From Chryseobacterium fluminis (GTDB lineage Bacteria > Bacteroidota > Bacteroidia > Flavobacteriales > Weeksellaceae), in contig NZ_CP111121.1 in the NCBI RefSeq assembly GCF_026314945.1, positions 806,001-870,000 of the forward strand: a DNA stretch of 64,000 nt, given 5' to 3'. This document shows, piece after piece, positions 7,397 to 31,967 of the stretch (within the stretch, counting starts at the first letter, position 1; each line of letters begins with the position of its first letter). The position numbers were made by a program, and so were the translations under genes. The notes under the pieces were generated by a model that saw only the letters and a list, made by a program, of their open reading frames with translations, made no database searches and was not told the DNA's origin.

Positions 7397-8056
7397 ATGA
7401 TTTCATTTCCAAAAAAAATAAACTTTGTAATTGCTATTATGAGCGCTTTGCTCATAATAGTAATTTTTTCTTTTCATAAAACGCCGACGCTGGACGATAA
7501 AATAAAAAAACTTGATTTTAATGATCATAGTATTTATCTGATTCAGAGGGGTACGACAGGAAAATTAGGAAACCTGGCTAAAGATTTCAATCTTGAAAAT
7601 AAATATGCCTCCCACCTTGGAATCGGCTTCGTGGAAAATCATCAACTGATCATTTACCATGTTTATGTAGATAAAAATAAAAAGAACCATCATAATTTAT
7701 TCATCGAGAACATCAGCGATTTCATTAAACCTGAAGACCTGAACTATCTTTCGGTATGGAGACTTAAGGATATTGATGCCGAAAAACTTCACGGCATCCG
7801 CGAATCTCTCAGAAAATCTGAAGAAGAAAATATTAATTTCGACTATGTTTTCGATAAAAGCGATAAAGAATACTACTGCTCGGAATTCATAGTGAAAACA
7901 CTTCTACGTAACAACATTACGATCATGTCTGAACATCGGAAAAAAGTAACGGGAATGGCCAGACAGATCTTACAGAAAGATACGCTTACTTATTTTCCGG
8001 TAGACGGGTTCGAAAATACCCACCGGGCTGAAAAAATACTGGAATGGATTAAATAA
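7397..8056 (+). CDS. YiiX/C92-type permuted NlpC/P60-like putative cysteine hydrolase
   Basis: About 219 residues from the ATG at 7397, which sits directly after the previous stop; an in-frame ATG 27 bases earlier lies inside the upstream gene and is less likely. An N-terminal signal anchor (about 8-27) is followed by a domain with the order His first, Cys later: ASHLGIGF (His) and KEYYCSEFIVK (Cys). This circularly permuted layout is typical of YiiX/YaeF-like (peptidase family C92) proteins, whose proposed activities are amidase or acyl-bond hydrolysis at the envelope. Substrate unknown. It is read as an operon with the preceding lipoprotein and followed by a strong terminator. Confidence 0.75.
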   Translation: MISFPKKINFVIAIMSALLIIVIFSFHKTPTLDDKIKKLDFNDHSIYLIQRGTTGKLGNLAKDFNLENKYASHLGIGFVENHQLIIYHVYVDKNKKNHHNLFIENISDFIKPEDLNYLSVWRLKDIDAEKLHGIRESLRKSEEENINFDYVFDKSDKEYYCSEFIVKTLLRNNITIMSEHRKKVTGMARQILQKDTLTYFPVDGFENTHRAEKILEWIK

Positions 8057-8156: not shown

Positions 8157-9305
8157 ATGATACAACTTCCTTTATCGAAACTTTCCAATGTAGGAACTAC
8201 AATTTTCAGCCAGATGACCCAATTGGCCAATGAAAATGAAGCCATCAATCTATCCCAGGGATTTCCTGATTTTATGCCCGATCTAGAACTGCTGAATTGG
8301 GCAGACCATTTTATGAAAGAAGGGTTTAACCAATACGCTCCTATGGGCGGAATGATGAGCTTAAAAGAGGAAATTGCAAGAAAAATCGAAAATTCGCATC
8401 AGGCCGTTTATCATCCGGATTCTGAAATCACCATAACGGCAGGCGGAACCCAGGCTATTTTTACCGCCATTGCCACTTTTGTAAAAAAAGATGATGAAGT
8501 GATCATCTTTGAACCGGCTTATGACTGCTATGAGCCCACCGTGGAATTGTTCGGAGGCATTGTGAAACGTTTCGAAATGAGAGCTCCAGATTATGAAATT
8601 AACTGGAATAAAGTAAGAGATCTCGTTTCAGAGAATACCAAAATGATTATTCTGAATAACCCCAACAATCCTTCGGGAAGAGTTCTAAAAGAAAATGATC
8701 TACAGGAGTTAATAAAAATAGTAAAGGGAACCTCTATTTTAATTTTAAGTGATGAAGTGTATGAAAATATCGTCTTCGACGGAAAACAGCATTTAAGCAT
8801 CTGCCGATACCCGGAGCTGAAAGACCGCACCCTTATGGTGGCTTCCTTCGGAAAGCTTTTCCATGTAACGGGCTGGAAGATCGGATATTGTGCCGCACCA
8901 AAAATTCTGACGGATGAGTTCAGGAAAATACATCAGTTCAATGTTTTCTCGGTGAACACCCCAATTCAGCTGGCCCTCGCAGAATATATGAAGCATGAGG
9001 AACATTATAAGCAGTTAAACCGGTTTTTCCAGGAAAAAAGAGATTTCCTGAGACAGGGGCTGGCCGGCACTTCTTTTGAATTACTGGATTGTGAAGGAAC
9101 CTATTTCCAGGCTTTGCGGTATGATAAAATCTCTGACAAAAACGATTTTGATTTCGCCCGTGAATTAACGGTCACGCATAAAGTAGCCACTGTCCCGTTT
9201 TCTTCTTTTTATAAAAATAAACTGAATGAGAATGTAATCCGTTTATGTTTTGCCAAAAAACAGGAAACCTTGGAAAAGGCTATTGAAAACCTATCCAGAT
9301 TATAG
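8157..9305 (+). CDS. Class I/II PLP aminotransferase, probably methionine aminotransferase type
   Basis: A 382-residue fold-type I aminotransferase. Visible family marks are NLSQGFPDF near the N-terminus, the Asn-Pro pair NNPNNPSGR, the Asp/Tyr site DEVYE and the PLP lysine in SFGKLFHVTGWK. A C-terminal VIRLCFAKK carries the carboxylate-binding Arg. The overall pattern is closest to the YbdL/kynurenine aminotransferase subgroup, which in bacteria commonly transaminates methionine, glutamine and aromatic 2-oxo acids. Substrate is inferred from subgroup only. It appears monocistronic, set off by a terminator upstream and a long non-coding stretch downstream. Confidence 0.88.
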   Translation: MIQLPLSKLSNVGTTIFSQMTQLANENEAINLSQGFPDFMPDLELLNWADHFMKEGFNQYAPMGGMMSLKEEIARKIENSHQAVYHPDSEITITAGGTQAIFTAIATFVKKDDEVIIFEPAYDCYEPTVELFGGIVKRFEMRAPDYEINWNKVRDLVSENTKMIILNNPNNPSGRVLKENDLQELIKIVKGTSILILSDEVYENIVFDGKQHLSICRYPELKDRTLMVASFGKLFHVTGWKIGYCAAPKILTDEFRKIHQFNVFSVNTPIQLALAEYMKHEEHYKQLNRFFQEKRDFLRQGLAGTSFELLDCEGTYFQALRYDKISDKNDFDFARELTVTHKVATVPFSSFYKNKLNENVIRLCFAKKQETLEKAIENLSRL

Positions 9306-21059: not shown

Positions 21060-21442
21060 ATTTTTTATTGTAAAAAGTTTATTTATTGAATCTAAGATAT
21101 TAAAATTTCAAGAAGAAATATGAATATCATTTTTTTTAACAGGTCAAAAATAAAACAATTAGACCGTGTGCCCACTTACCATAGATCAAGAAATGCGATT
21201 GGATTCGGAAAAGAAATAAGATTAAATATTGATTAAAAAATTGCTTTAAAACAAATAACATTCTCATTTTAAACGCATTATCAGATTGATATTTAATATT
21301 ATCCAACAGAAAAATAAAATCCCCAACGATAAAGTCGGGGAAAAAACTAATAACTGAGAATAAACCGATTGATTATTCTGTTACAAAAATAAATGACAGG
21401 AGATACATCCGTTTATGATTTCAATCGTATTGTAGAAAAAAT
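21060..21442. other. Non-coding AT-rich region beside the CRISPR locus
   Basis: No gene is supported. A hairpin at 21319-21342 (CCCC/GGGG arms with an internal mismatch) carries a T-run on the minus strand and could end a minus-strand transcript coming from the tandem elements to its right. Confidence 0.4.
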
Positions 21443-21474
21443 GGTGTGAATTGCTTTCAAAATTTATTATCTTC
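21443..21474 (+). repeat. Isolated 5' half of a CRISPR repeat
   Basis: This 32-base stretch matches positions 1-32 of the array's 47-bp repeat with one substitution (GGTGTGAATTGC... for GTTGTGAATTGC...). The 3' half is absent here; sequence diverges at AGCTGTTTAAACA. It lies about 890 bp before the array's decayed first repeat, which retains mainly the 3' half. Confidence 0.8.
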
Positions 21475-21490
21475 AGCTGTTTAAACATCA

Positions 21491-21933
21491 CTACCGCACG
21501 AATCCTTCGTGTGGTTGTCTGTAGTAAACCACAAAGGAAATCCAAAAGATTCTAAACACTTTAGTTAATTAAGTAATATACTTTACGCAGAAGAAGCACA
21601 CTTAAGTTTTTTGAAAATCTTTGATTTTCTTCTGAGGTACACTTATTTCTGCGGTGTCTTTTAAATTTTTTAAAATGTATTTAAGTGTGGGAGAACAACT
21701 ACAAACTGCACCGCTACCGCACGAATCCCTTCGTGTGGTTGTCTGTAGTAAACCACAAAGGAAATCCAAAAGATTCTAAACACTTTAGTTAATTAAGGTA
21801 TATACTTTACGCAGAAGAAGCACACTTAAGTTTTTTGAAAATCTTTGATTTTCTTCTGATGTATACTTAATTCTGCGGTGTCTTTTAAACTTTTTAAAAT
21901 GTATTTAAGTGTGGGAGAACAACTACAAACTGC
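21491..21933. repeat. Tandem duplication (about 220 bp x 2) with palindromic head and gene-fragment tail
   Basis: Copy 1 (21491-21713) and copy 2 (21714-21933) are nearly identical. Each starts with a palindromic unit CTACCGCACGAATCC...TTCGTGTGG, followed by GTTGTCTGTAGTAAACC. The rest, read on the minus strand, encodes a fragment ending LKDTAE, then I/L-S, then QKKIKDFQKT and stop. A diverged third unit follows from 21934. The palindromic unit recurs inverted near 34238-34278. Confidence 0.8.
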
Positions 21934-22027
21934 GACCTTACGAATCCCTTGGTGTGATTGTCTCTAGTAAACCACAAAGGAGATCCGAAAGATTTCTAAA
22001 CATTTAAGTTAATAAAAGTAATATGCT

Positions 22028-22249
22028 TTACGTAGAAAGAAGCACATTGAAGTCTTGTTGAAAATCTTTGATTTTCTCCTGAATTACACTTAATTCTGCA
22101 GTATTTTCTTCCCCGAAATAGTCCTTTAACGAAAGTTCCCCGCACTGGCAACTGGTTTTCAGCCGTTTTATAATGGTCTGAATTATTTTTACCAAGTTAA
22201 ACTTTGTAGAAAATCCTCTTTTCCTTCTGCTTAAATGGGTGAAATCCAT
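22028..22249 (-). CDS. Small ORF of unknown function, parent of the tandem fragments
   Basis: A 73-residue frame (MDFTHLSRRKRGF...; C-x-C at CQCGE; tail NTAELSVIQEKIKDFQQDF). I do not recognise it. The two upstream tandem units contain aligned fragments of its C-terminal half in the same register (C-x-C, L-K, D-T-A-E, I-K-D-F-Q), so substitutions have accumulated without breaking that frame, which modestly supports a coding past. It is basic at the N-terminus. It may be a remnant of a larger mobile-element gene. It lies between the half-repeats that bound the CRISPR array. Confidence 0.4.
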   Translation of the reverse strand: MDFTHLSRRKRGFSTKFNLVKIIQTIIKRLKTSCQCGELSLKDYFGEENTAELSVIQEKIKDFQQDFNVLLST

Positions 22250-22330: not shown

Positions 22331-22916
22331 TTTTTTCCTGAATAAGTTTAAACAATTTTTTCGTGATAAGTCACAGTATAACCATTAATTTTCGTCATGG
22401 AGACATTGTTGTAAAGTGCTTTCAAAATTTATTATCTTCGTGATCAGTCACAGCAGAACCTGATTCAAGCCGTCCATCGATGCAGTTGTGAATTGCTTTC
22501 AAAATTTATTACCTTCGTGATCAGTCACAGCTAGATATTTCTGTCTGTGTAAGACCTTCTTGTTGTGAATTGCTTTCAAAATTTATTATCTTCGTGATCA
22601 GTCACAGCTCGGCTCCGCCTGCATCCTCGCCCGCTCCTGTTGTGAATTGCTTTCAAAATTTATTATCTTCGTGATCAGTCACAGCTCGGCTCCGCCTGCA
22701 TCCTCGCCCGCTCCTGTTGTGAATTGCTTTCAAAATTTATTATCTTCGTGATCAGTCACAGCAGTATAACCATCCGAAACCAGCTTTCGTATGTTGTGAA
22801 TTGCTTTCAAAATTTATTATCTTCGTGATCAGTCACAGCTTTACAACAGTTAAGAATATTAGGAAACGAGTTGTGAATTGCTTTCAAAATTTATTATCTT
22901 CGTGATCAGTCACAGC
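22331..22916 (+). CRISPR. Type II-C CRISPR array: 7 repeats of 47 bp plus 1 decayed, 30-bp spacers
   Basis: Intact repeats start at 22408, 22485, 22562, 22639, 22716, 22793 and 22870. The consensus starts GTTGTGAATTGCTTTCAAAA and ends TTCGTGATCAGTCACAGC. Every spacer is 30 bp (22455, 22532, 22609, 22686, 22763, 22840). Repeat 1 (22408) differs near its 5' end; repeat 2 has one change. A decayed repeat at 22331-22377 keeps its 3' half and is followed by exactly 30 bases before repeat 1, giving a seventh spacer. Spacers at 22609 and 22686 are identical and about 73% GC. The tracrRNA anti-repeat pairs with the repeat 5' part, so crRNAs are read on the plus strand. The repeat contains TATCTTCG, one mismatch from the -7 promoter element. 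Confidence 0.97.
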
Positions 22917-22920
22917 CTCA

Positions 22921-22957
22921 AAAAATAATCTACTGAAAATCAGTAGATTATTTTTAT
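22921..22957. terminator. Bidirectional terminator between the CRISPR array and cas2
   Basis: A perfect 15-bp stem (22921-22935 with 22941-22955, loop AAAAT) has T-runs in both directions. It separates plus-strand array transcripts from the minus-strand cas operon, ending both. Confidence 0.85.
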
Positions 22958-22973: not shown

Positions 22974-24201
<1,228 letters not shown>

Positions 24202-24212
24202 TGATTTTGATT

Positions 24213-24734
24213 TTATTCCGGATAGTATTGAGCGTATAAATACTCCATATCGTCTGCAAAGCCATAACCGCAGCAGGAAGACCATTTTACACACTGCAAT
24301 GCCTTATCCTGAAACTGCTGCAGTAACCTGTTTTTCTTTAAAAATTCGAGGGCTGCTTTGTAATTATTAAACGCAGAATCATAAAACTGCATAGAATAAT
24401 CACCGTACAGGGCTGTAAGTTCACAGGCACTCTCAGAGAGATAAAGCATAACTTCCGCAAGATCTTCAGGCGAAGGCTGCAGATTTTTGAAATCTGAAAT
24501 GACTCGCTTGGCTACGGAAAAACGTTCTGTGCTTTTCATAGGATTTTCAACATTAAACTCCTTACGGATAAGCTTTTTATACTTATCGGCAAGTTGTTTT
24601 CCGCTGGTAGGATTAAGGTAGAACTGATAAAATTCTTTGACGGCCTTATTCTTTTCATACAAGTCTAAAATCTGCTCAATAATCTGCTCTTTTGTGAGCT
24701 TCTGAAGCTCTTTCTTTAATGCTGCTTTTGACAT
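24213..24734 (-). CDS. DUF6155-like helical protein inserted between cas9 and cas1
   Basis: A 173-residue, almost entirely helical, acidic-tailed protein. The N-terminus SKAALKKELQKLTKEQIIEQ, then LDLYEKNKAVKEFY and FYLNP, matches my recollection of the DUF6155 family of Bacteroidota. A late segment has CVKWSSCCGYGFADD, a possible metal or redox cluster. There are no membrane segments. It begins 2 bases after the cas9 stop and ends 11 bases before cas1, so it is translated as part of the cas operon. It does not resemble Csn2 (no P-loop-like fold features) or Cas4 (no RecB motifs). DUF6155 proteins also occur outside CRISPR loci as far as I recall, so a role in adaptation or Cas9 control is inference from position only. 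Confidence 0.8.
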   Translation of the reverse strand: MSKAALKKELQKLTKEQIIEQILDLYEKNKAVKEFYQFYLNPTSGKQLADKYKKLIRKEFNVENPMKSTERFSVAKRVISDFKNLQPSPEDLAEVMLYLSESACELTALYGDYSMQFYDSAFNNYKAALEFLKKNRLLQQFQDKALQCVKWSSCCGYGFADDMEYLYAQYYPE

Positions 24735-24736
24735 AA

Positions 24737-29242: not shown

Positions 29243-31366
29243 ATGAACACAATCAGCTATATCAGGCAAACTCTCAATATAACGGAAAAAAGTATTCGGG
29301 CAACGTTGGAATTACTTTCTGAAGACTGCACCATTCCCTTCATTTCCCGCTACCGAAAAGATAAAACCGGAAACTTGGATGAAATCCAGATCGAACAGAT
29401 TTCAAAACTTAACAAGCAGTTTGAGGACATTGTAAAAAGAAAAGAATCTATTCTAAAATCTGTTGAAGAGCAAAATACGTTAACGCCCGAACTGAGACAG
29501 AAGATAAATGAAAGCTTCGATATTCAGGAGCTTGAAGATCTTTATTTACCATTCAGAAAAAGAAGAAAAACCAAAGCGGATGCCGCAAAGGAAAAAGGCT
29601 TGGAACCTTTGGCTAAAATGATAATGAGTCAGAAAGCCCAGGATATCCAGTTTGTGGCTTCAAAGTATCTGAATGACCAGGTTTCCGGTGAGGAAGAAGC
29701 GCTACAGGGAGCACGCGATATCGTGGCAGAGTGGATCAATGAAAATATGTATGTCCGCAAAAATCTGCGCCGCCTGTTTCAGCGCAAAGCAGTCGTGACC
29801 TCAAAAGTGGTTAAAGCCAAGAAAGATGAAGAAGGCGCACAGAAATACGCCCAGTATTTTGAATGGGAAGAAAGCCTCAGCCGTACACCTTCTCACAGGC
29901 TGCTGGCCATGTTAAGAGCAGAAGCGGAAGGTTTTGTAAAAACGGGCATCAGCATCGGCAAAGAAGAAGCCATCGACCTGATCGAAAATGCAGTGATCAG
30001 ATCTGACAATGAATCGGCAGAACAGATCTCCTTAGCGGTAAAAGACAGCTACAAAAGACTCTTGGAACCAGCTATCTCCAATGAAACATTACAGGAAGCG
30101 AAAGAAAAAGCAGATAAAAAAGCGATTGAAATCTTTTCGGAAAACCTAAGCCAGCTTCTGCTTGCCCCGCCTTTAGGGGAAAAAAGAATTCTGGCCATCG
30201 ATCCCGGCTATAAAAGCGGCTGCAAAATTGTCTGCCTCGATGAAAAGGGAGATTTATTACATAATGAAACAATTTATCCCCACGCTCCGCAGAATGAGTC
30301 CGGAATGGCGATGAAAAAAATCCGTTCTATGGTGAATGCCTATCATATAGAAGCCATATCCATCGGAAACGGAACGGCAAGCCGCGAAACTGAGTTTTTT
30401 ATCAAAAAAATTGCCTTTGATAAACCGTTACAGGTTTTTGTCGTTTCAGAAGCGGGAGCTTCGGTCTACTCTGCCAGTAAAATTGCGAGGGATGAATTTC
30501 CAACATATGATGTTACGGTCCGCGGGGCCGTATCGATCGGAAGAAGGCTGGCAGATCCTCTGGCAGAACTGGTGAAGATAGACGCTAAATCTATCGGAGT
30601 GGGACAATATCAGCATGATGTCGATCAGACCCTGTTGAAAAACGAACTGGACTCTACCGTAATGAAATGTGTAAATTCCGTAGGAATTAACTTAAATACC
30701 GCCAGCAAGTCGTTGTTAAGCTACGTTTCCGGGATCGGAGAAAAGATGGCTGAAAATATCGTGAATTACCGCGCTGAAAACGGTGCTTTCGAAGACCGTA
30801 AACAATTGAAAAAGGTTCCGCGATTAGGCGAGAAAGCTTTTCAGCAGGCAGCCGCATTTGTGAGAATCGCCAACGGTAAAAATCCGCTTGATAATTCCGC
30901 CGTCCATCCCGAGGCATACGGAATTATTGAACAGATGGCAAAAGATCTGGGCATCAAAACCCATGAACTGATCGCCAATAAAGAAAAAATTGCTCAGATA
31001 AAACCTGAGAAATACACGACGGAGGATATCGGAATTTTAAGTATTAAAGATATTTTAAAAGAGCTTGAAAAACCTGGCCTGGATCCCAGAAAAGCAGCCA
31101 AAGTTTTTGAGTTTGATCCCCAGGTAAAAAAAATAACAGACCTTAAAACAGGAATGGTCCTGCCGGGAATTGTCAACAATATTACGGCATTCGGATGTTT
31201 TGTCGATCTGGGAATTAAAGAAAGCGGTCTCGTTCATATTTCCCAGCTTAAAGAAGGTTTTGTTTCCGATGTCAACGAAGTGGTAAAACTTCACCAGCAC
31301 GTTCAGGTCAGGGTTACTGAGGTGGATGAGGCGAGAAAAAGAATACAGTTGAGCATGATTTTATAA
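29243..31366 (+). CDS. tex: Tex-family RNA-binding protein (S1 domain)
   Basis: A 707-residue Tex/YhgF-type protein. It has the N-terminal helical Tex domain (FISRYRKDKTGNLDEIQIEQ), a RuvC-like YqgF domain (LAIDPGYKSGCKIVCLD at about 314), tandem helix-hairpin-helix motifs (VNSVGINLNTAS, SGIGEKMAENIVNYR, VPRLGEKAFQQAA) and a C-terminal S1 RNA-binding domain (about 635-705, GMVLPGIVNNITAFGCFVDL). The family binds nucleic acid and affects transcription, with no agreed mechanism. It follows the tracrRNA by about 36 bases but has no evident link to CRISPR. All domains are complete. Confidence 0.95.
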   Translation: MNTISYIRQTLNITEKSIRATLELLSEDCTIPFISRYRKDKTGNLDEIQIEQISKLNKQFEDIVKRKESILKSVEEQNTLTPELRQKINESFDIQELEDLYLPFRKRRKTKADAAKEKGLEPLAKMIMSQKAQDIQFVASKYLNDQVSGEEEALQGARDIVAEWINENMYVRKNLRRLFQRKAVVTSKVVKAKKDEEGAQKYAQYFEWEESLSRTPSHRLLAMLRAEAEGFVKTGISIGKEEAIDLIENAVIRSDNESAEQISLAVKDSYKRLLEPAISNETLQEAKEKADKKAIEIFSENLSQLLLAPPLGEKRILAIDPGYKSGCKIVCLDEKGDLLHNETIYPHAPQNESGMAMKKIRSMVNAYHIEAISIGNGTASRETEFFIKKIAFDKPLQVFVVSEAGASVYSASKIARDEFPTYDVTVRGAVSIGRRLADPLAELVKIDAKSIGVGQYQHDVDQTLLKNELDSTVMKCVNSVGINLNTASKSLLSYVSGIGEKMAENIVNYRAENGAFEDRKQLKKVPRLGEKAFQQAAAFVRIANGKNPLDNSAVHPEAYGIIEQMAKDLGIKTHELIANKEKIAQIKPEKYTTEDIGILSIKDILKELEKPGLDPRKAAKVFEFDPQVKKITDLKTGMVLPGIVNNITAFGCFVDLGIKESGLVHISQLKEGFVSDVNEVVKLHQHVQVRVTEVDEARKRIQLSMIL

Positions 31367-31442
31367 TTTTTCCTGGAGCAAAATTATTATACAAACCCCT
31401 CTGAACTTCGAAAATTTTTAATATTAAATTGTCAATTCGGTT

Positions 31443-31943
31443 CCGTCAGTTCGAGTAACGAAGCAAAGCGGAGTGTATCGAGAAGTTTTGTATACAATAA
31501 AACTTTAGTAATAACTACTTCCCTGATGCAGTACTTCTCGATACGGTTTCCAAAAACCTACTCGAAGTGACGGTGGTGTTTGATTTAATATAGGAGTTCA
31601 TCAATACAGCTTTGTTAATTTAAGTTGATCCATTATTCTGTAAAACATCGTTCCGTCACTTCGAGTAGCGAAGCAAAGCGGAGTGTATCGAGAAGTTCGT
31701 ACAGTAAGTTATTATAGCTATTTCCCTGAAGCACTTCTCGATATGGTTTTTTTCAAAAACCTACTCGAAGTGACGATGGTGTCTTATTAGATATTTGGGT
31801 AAATAATATACAGCTTTCGTCATTTCGAGTAGCGAAGCAAAGCGGAGTGTATCGAGAAGTTCGTACAGTAAGTTATTATAACTACTTCCCTGATGCAGCA
31901 CTTCTCGATACGGTTTTTTTTCAAAAACCTACTCGAAGTGACG
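31443..31943. repeat. Three copies of a 125-130 bp inverted-repeat element
   Basis: Copies lie at 31443-31572, 31653-31775 and 31818-31943. Each begins CGTCA(C/T)TTCGAGTA(G/A)CGAAGC and ends CTACTCGAAGTGACG, its reverse complement, with an inner pair TATCGAGAAGT / ACTTCTCGATA, so each can fold into a long hairpin. No coding potential. The group fills the 600 bases between tex and the convergent M28 peptidase gene. This is a dispersed intergenic element of the MITE/REP kind known informally from Flavobacteriia. Confidence 0.88.
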
Positions 31944-31967
31944 AAGTTAATAAAATAGAAAGTGAGT

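Follow-up and report, generated by a model that had tools for sequence, protein, structure and literature searches.

A DUF6155 family gene as a recurrent and optional accessory of type II-C CRISPR-Cas loci in Bacteroidota

The window analyzed here is a stretch of 64,000 nucleotides from Chryseobacterium fluminis (contig NZ_CP111121.1, positions 806,001 to 870,000). It contains a type II-C CRISPR-Cas locus, in which a small gene is located between cas9 and cas1 (Table 1). The gap to cas9 is 2 bases (24735-24736) and the gap to cas1 is 11 bases (24202-24212), taking the ATG at 24201 as the cas1 start, which was chosen to agree with cas1 relatives. The placement of the 173-residue gene and both gaps had been given exactly by the first-pass annotation, made from the sequence alone. 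Its statement that the gene must be co-translated with its neighbors was too strong; the layout supports a single operon and perhaps coupled translation. The identities of cas9, cas1 and cas2 were backed by both Pfam and NCBIfam, and a search of the genome found one copy of the small gene. The match of the window Cas9 to CbCas9 (PDB 8iyq, 1442 aa) extended across residues 1-1426, and by sequence the protein is homologous to CbCas9 and lacks the C-terminal extension of the Cas9s that are linked to the accessory PcrIIC1. Two adjacent repeat-spacer units of the array (22558-22711) are 99% identical and carry the same spacer twice. Ahead of the array, three copies of a unit of about 224 bp come in tandem after the partial repeat (21433-22107 in all). 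Downstream of a gene for a 707-aa protein (29243-31366), at 31441-31962, there are three repeat blocks (83 bases) that are related to one another, with identities of 65% and 94% to the reference copy.

Table 1. Features of the type II-C locus in the window
Feature	Position	Strand	Basis
DUF6155 (PF19652) accessory gene, 173 aa, ATG start	24213..24734	-	ORF and Pfam, clade tree, cysteines, AF2 model
cas9, type II-C, 1429 aa	24737..29026	-	NCBIfam cas_Csn1 405 bits; PDB 8iyq 2456 bits; C-terminal alignment
cas1, type II	23314..24201	-	TIGR03639 280 bits
cas2	22974..23312	-	TIGR01573 57.8 bits
CRISPR array, 7 repeats, 77-base units	22404..22942	.	47-nt repeat and 30-nt spacer (by inspection)
Isolated partial CRISPR repeat, candidate tracrRNA anti-repeat	21433..21474	+	Repeat analysis

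The label "DUF6155-like" given in the first pass was borne out, as residues 1-147 of 173 matched the Pfam family at 77.3 bits compared to a curated cut-off of 27. No NCBIfam or PADLOC family was found for the gene at E <= 0.1. An AF2 model (pLDDT 93.1) consisted of nine helices and zero strands. Its top fold look-alikes were helical-repeat scaffolds, with a similarity inside the chance range for such folds, and neither a toxin nor a nuclease family or fold was found using Pfam, the AF2 model and fold comparison. The protein is therefore predicted from the model to be a small all-helical repeat, in which no enzyme fold was found. Csn2 in subtype II-A and Cas4 in II-B likewise appear as a fourth gene beside cas1, cas2 and cas9. 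Csn2 has an alpha/beta ATPase-like fold and Cas4 a PD-(D/E)XK nuclease fold, both of which contain strands, whereas the DUF6155 model has none. No profile match to either was obtained in Pfam, NCBIfam or PADLOC, and both identities were rejected, in agreement with the earlier judgement. The pI ranged from 4.8 to 8.8 across the 18 cas-linked DUF6155 proteins described below, and this near-neutral charge disfavors a role as a plain nucleic-acid binder.

Three cysteines set the cas-linked proteins apart. C104 and C155 were each present in 121 of 122 close relatives and C148 in all 122, the set comprising the window protein, 120 among the matches listed and the protein of one Bacteroides locus (L081); among 29 unlinked relatives the counts were 1 for C104, 0 for C148 and 1 for C155. 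The Bacteroides copy, of about 50% identity, retained all three. Judging from the order of the helices, these residues may sit together at one end of the last helices. They would form the best candidate for an active surface, either as a metal site or as a redox switch, the type of site being a guess. Fifteen sequences gave 105 pairs for codon analysis, of which the 6 unsaturated pairs, all from five Chryseobacterium sequences, had omega values of 0.05-0.14. By this measure, the cas-linked gene shows purifying selection.

DUF6155 was found in 8 of 118 Chryseobacterium genomes surveyed. All 8 were among the 65 genomes with a type II cas1 over the cut-off, and every one of the 8 genes lay at a type II locus, so placement by chance was rejected. 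The HMM matches to DUF6155 and cas1 were 101-109 bases apart in seven of these genomes. In the eighth (locus L086 of genome G074) the gene was found 4.9 kb from cas1, just past the far end of an array of 57 repeats; there, at 8417-8929, it adjoins the degenerate last repeat, distant from cas9-cas1-cas2. When 84,980 species genomes were scanned, close relatives were found at 15 loci, one holding only a shortened remnant (L082) and six lying on the same contigs as genomes of the genus survey. Cas9 was present at all 15 and cas1 was in view at 14, the stretch of the remaining one (L070) stopping at DUF6155. In Pedobacter the gene occurred in 2 of 145 genomes, both copies inside cas loci. After the lists were merged, 18 distinct loci remained in which the gene is full-length or nearly so, including one with a match to residues 1-138 (L080) and one with a single in-frame stop (L075). 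They come from Chryseobacterium, Flavobacterium, Pedobacter, Paludibacter, Prolixibacteraceae, a Bacteroides MAG and an unclassified Bacteroidetes MAG, with the caution that MAG labels may be wrong. All 18 are cas9 loci. The gene adjoins cas9 with no intact gene between in 17, and lies across the array in L086. Sixteen of the 17 are downstream of cas9 and one is upstream (L081); the linkage persists in the Bacteroides MAG despite a different gene order.

In a tree of 47 DUF6155 proteins the 18 cas-linked members formed one clade (support 98/92), apart from the 29 unlinked ones, and the label changed only once in 96% of bootstrap trees. Linkage is thus a property of one clade within a mostly unlinked family, and the 18 loci do not represent independent origins. 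The proposal that an extra gene belongs to these II-C operons held for this clade, a non-core gene that recurs at 18 of 18 II-C loci. The enrichment near cas genes that was suggested as a check applied to the clade and not to the entire family. Among 395 genomes sampled across the phylum, 41 had DUF6155; among the 40 besides the window's genome, 10 had a cas9 over the cut-off, and in none of the 40 was it near DUF6155. Of 395 genomes sampled from the class, 33 matched at E <= 1e-20, the window genome with 312 bits and the next with 156.

Type II loci were opened in 60 of the 65 genus genomes, leaving out G017, G028, G055, G080 and G089. Besides the 8 copies, one of them broken by a stop, three relics were found in the same slot between cas9 and cas1. 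One retains the first 19 residues (L140). Another (L101, 9328-9477) has the two ends of the gene joined in frame by an internal deletion, leaving about 49 residues behind a frame-split cas9. The third is a decayed N-terminal part with a weak C-terminal trace (L128). The three relics and the stop-broken copy indicate frequent loss. Of 51 genus loci that have no intact DUF6155 gene, 42 had cas9 and cas1 within 15 bases of each other; the 51 exclude two loci (L094, L133) whose Cas9 was not recognized by the script. The other nine comprised the three relics, two PcrIIC1 genes, two loci with split cas genes (L100, L142) and two with spacers of 40 and 80 bases (L091, L106). The median array length was 31 repeats with DUF6155 (n=9) versus 28 without it (n=48). 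DUF6155 is therefore optional and not needed by the II-C system. The comparison with gene-free relatives proposed in the first-pass annotation thus argued against a required role, as the same operon was found without DUF6155 and with arrays just as long.

The gene was also found to be exchanged independently of its neighbors. Three loci (L071, L072, L079) have DUF6155 proteins 95-97% identical, Cas1s 90-94% identical and Cas9s only 26-32% identical, so DUF6155 is not tied to one Cas9. Two loci from different genera (L080, L084) share Cas9 at 82% and DUF6155 at 81% identity, with Cas1 at 49%, and DUF6155 also occurred with Cas1s 44-53% identical to that of the window. In L072, cas9 is followed by fragments of a second cas1 (7653-7935), upstream of an undisturbed DUF6155-cas1-cas2 unit. 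These fragments are apparently the scar of a cas9 replacement in situ. Such shuffling of cas9 has been described for Flavobacteriales II-C loci (PMC12669027, Extended Data Fig. 9 legend), and the likeness to the present loci is the exchange of cas9 around a constant cas1. The passages on shuffling in that paper do not mention an extra gene persisting through the exchange, whereas here DUF6155 survives it. On genus trees, the presence of DUF6155 required 8 changes on the Cas9 tree and 8 on the Cas1 tree, compared to a mean of 9.4 for shuffled labels, of which 52-58 of 500 shuffles were as low as observed. Presence is scattered over both trees. A Cas9 alignment column separating 6 loci with DUF6155 from 16 without it was not found, in a weak test in which shuffled labels gave none either. 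Every Chryseobacterium Cas9 lineage with DUF6155 also has a Cas9 at least 84% identical to a linked one in a locus without an intact copy, showing that Cas9 does not need DUF6155. As far as can be read from sequences, the exchange pattern, the trees and the column test argue against a lineage-specific Cas9 contact; a direct Cas9 interface, for which no positive evidence was found, is putative. The 18 loci show a cas-linked clade that is exchanged horizontally among type II-C loci of Bacteroidota and that, in the genomes covered, was met at cas9 loci only. The gene is conserved and optional, and its exchange is independent of that of Cas9 and of Cas1.

Could DUF6155 be a helper of spacer acquisition that works alongside Cas1-Cas2, in the manner of Csn2 or Cas4 in other systems? 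In Chryseobacterium, 10 of the 11 loci that carry the gene have it immediately upstream of cas1, the disrupted locus L072 retains an undisturbed DUF6155-cas1-cas2 unit, and the near-identical proteins of L071, L072 and L079 go with similar Cas1s and dissimilar Cas9s. However, the divergent Cas1s found elsewhere with DUF6155, the failure of its presence to follow the genus Cas1 tree and its absence from the majority of type II loci in the genus make this explanation unlikely, and a need for DUF6155 in acquisition is disfavored by the equally long arrays without it. An optional role on the effector side is more likely than a need in acquisition. Overall, the interpretation given in the first-pass annotation was supported in part.

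The unlinked relatives are of interest for a second alternative. DUF6155 matches were found in 212 of 299 Flavobacterium genomes, 208 with one match and 4 with two. One Flavobacterium MAG (G507, the same as G819) carries both kinds, a stand-alone orthologue and a cas-linked copy, and the second copies in G835 and G722 lie away from cas genes and outside the cas-linked clade. Stand-alone members belong to the same Pfam family and are about 24-45% identical to the cas-linked ones; they differ in not being cas-linked and in being without the three cysteines. In Flavobacterium, the stand-alone gene was followed within two genes by an SF2 helicase in 9 of 9 opened loci. This helicase is RadD-like, scoring 101.8 bits with the RadD model, short of the cut-off of 720. 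Genes for PIN, AbiEii or type I restriction proteins were found within about 3 kb in 5 of 7 opened unlinked loci (L201, L205, L202, L204, L206), the PIN score in L205 (21.7) being under the cut-off of 23.6. Like the plasmid contexts that follow, this tally has no control set and therefore serves as a lead only. Distant relatives were found in 10 plasmid records. One adjoins a GIY-YIG gene with a type I restriction endonuclease near, the second has a DUF3800 gene three genes away, the third adjoins a helix-turn-helix regulator, and the fourth is without any of these four kinds of neighbor. On a Cupriavidus plasmid (L211, 2554-6761), a YhcG nuclease, a weakly DUF6155-like protein (18.9 bits, below the cut-off) and a TOTE primase-helicase lie in a tight row.

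The neighbors of the five unlinked loci and of the first plasmid relative, together with the indifference of DUF6155 to Cas9 and Cas1 lineage, would fit a stand-alone or back-up defense gene, acting abortively or as a guard if CRISPR fails, for which the cas operon provides expression and a means of transfer. Against this stand the uncontrolled tally, the lack of any toxin or nuclease family or fold in the searches above, and the clade itself, with no copy found off a cas9 locus. The explanation is regarded as rather improbable. A brake on Cas9, either an internal regulator or a domesticated anti-CRISPR that limits self-targeting, would agree with a small protein co-encoded with Cas9 and with its sporadic gain and loss. 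However, a pattern-based scan confirmed 0 relatives in viral_contigs, the phage records contained one distant, unannotated relative of 38% identity, and operons and arrays are kept in loci without the gene. A brake is thus considered very unlikely.

The slot between cas9 and cas1 is also used by another gene. PcrIIC1 and its action with CbCas9 were reportedly described by Zhang et al. in Nature in 2024, with structures PDB 8wmm, 8wmn and 8wr4. PMC13153721 assigns PcrIIC1 to the PIN-domain superfamily by annotation, gives a prediction that it binds a C-terminal helix (CTH) of its partner Cas9s, and states that DNA binding and cleavage by CbCas9 are enhanced by it. A PcrIIC1-matching gene filled the slot of DUF6155 in 2 genus loci, intact in L117 (220.7 bits against PDB 8wmm) and shortened internally in L107. 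The first-pass premise that II-C loci are defined by cas9, cas1 and cas2 only is therefore out of date. The internal deletion in L107 (8644-8937) indicates that PcrIIC1 also decays in this slot. DUF6155 and PcrIIC1 never occurred together in 75 loci (69 distinct), nor in the window. The Cas9s of L107 and L117 have the C-terminal extension, which probably corresponds to the published CTH. The extension was absent from the window Cas9, from 6 other DUF6155-linked Cas9s of CbCas9 type, from one relic-bearing locus and from 16 with neither gene; because of these 16, its absence is not special to DUF6155 loci. DUF6155 itself was rejected as a PcrIIC1 or PIN factor, since no PcrIIC1 sequence match at E up to 1 and no PIN match in Pfam was obtained and the model is all-helical. 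The two are alike in being small accessories that accompany a large II-C Cas9, in occupying the same slot within the genus and in going with the Cas9 lineage of the window. The difference is that PcrIIC1 is a PIN-family protein predicted in PMC13153721 to dock on the Cas9 C-terminal helix, whereas DUF6155 is modeled as all-helical, has no sequence match to it and goes with Cas9s without the extension. Apparently two unrelated proteins use one slot, by different means. That DUF6155 is only a passenger caught in a recombination hot spot, an idea for which the relics and the PcrIIC1, transposase-like, PRiA4_ORF3 and AAA ATPase genes admitted to the interval might speak, is highly improbable given the purifying selection, the single dedicated clade and the close spacing of cas9 and cas1 in 42 of 51 loci, which shows that the slot does not collect genes indiscriminately in this genus.

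It is concluded that the DUF6155 gene is very probably a functional accessory of the cas operon. The best explanation for its role, with a probability of roughly 0.45, could be that of a non-catalytic adaptor on the effector side, which uses the slot of PcrIIC1 by another mechanism. Such an adaptor would be made together with Cas9 and would raise or tune the effector stage, that is target binding, cleavage or events after the cut. By analogy, its job would resemble that of PcrIIC1, which serves other Cas9s of the lineage from that slot. Since nearly identical DUF6155s accompany Cas9s of 26-32% identity, the contact would not be with a lineage-specific Cas9 tail; the candidates are a feature common to these Cas9s, the complex with the guide RNA, and a host protein that processes DNA. 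A bolder form of the adaptor reading would have DUF6155 as a Cas9-agnostic plug-in, a helical adaptor whose three-cysteine site boosts or gates the immunity of distant II-C Cas9s, through a common Cas9 feature or by connecting cleavage by Cas9 with a helicase or nuclease of host repair. The latter link is hinted at by the cousins that adjoin the RadD-like helicase in Flavobacterium; taken as a whole, this bolder form is doubtful.

Associated genes of II-C loci are a kind already known, and the DUF6155 family would be new among them. Such accessory genes have come under study only recently, with PcrIIC1 as the one worked example met here, and DUF6155 adds a second, unrelated family in its slot, adjoining a Cas9 close to CbCas9. 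Since CbCas9 structures and assay protocols exist, the effect of DUF6155 on Cas9 activity is testable at once. Its persistence through Cas9 swaps distinguishes DUF6155 from cofactors bound to one Cas9 lineage, and may be a sign of a general helper or of a host protein that cooperates in Cas9 immunity.

Other genes were also observed in the cas9-cas1 interval of single loci. A PRiA4_ORF3 family protein is encoded in L165 (7529-8134) and an AAA ATPase in L081 (13176-14432). Similar proteins are encoded in L073 (8556-9245) and L078 (8602-9267), one of them with an IS200-like transposase match below the cut-off.
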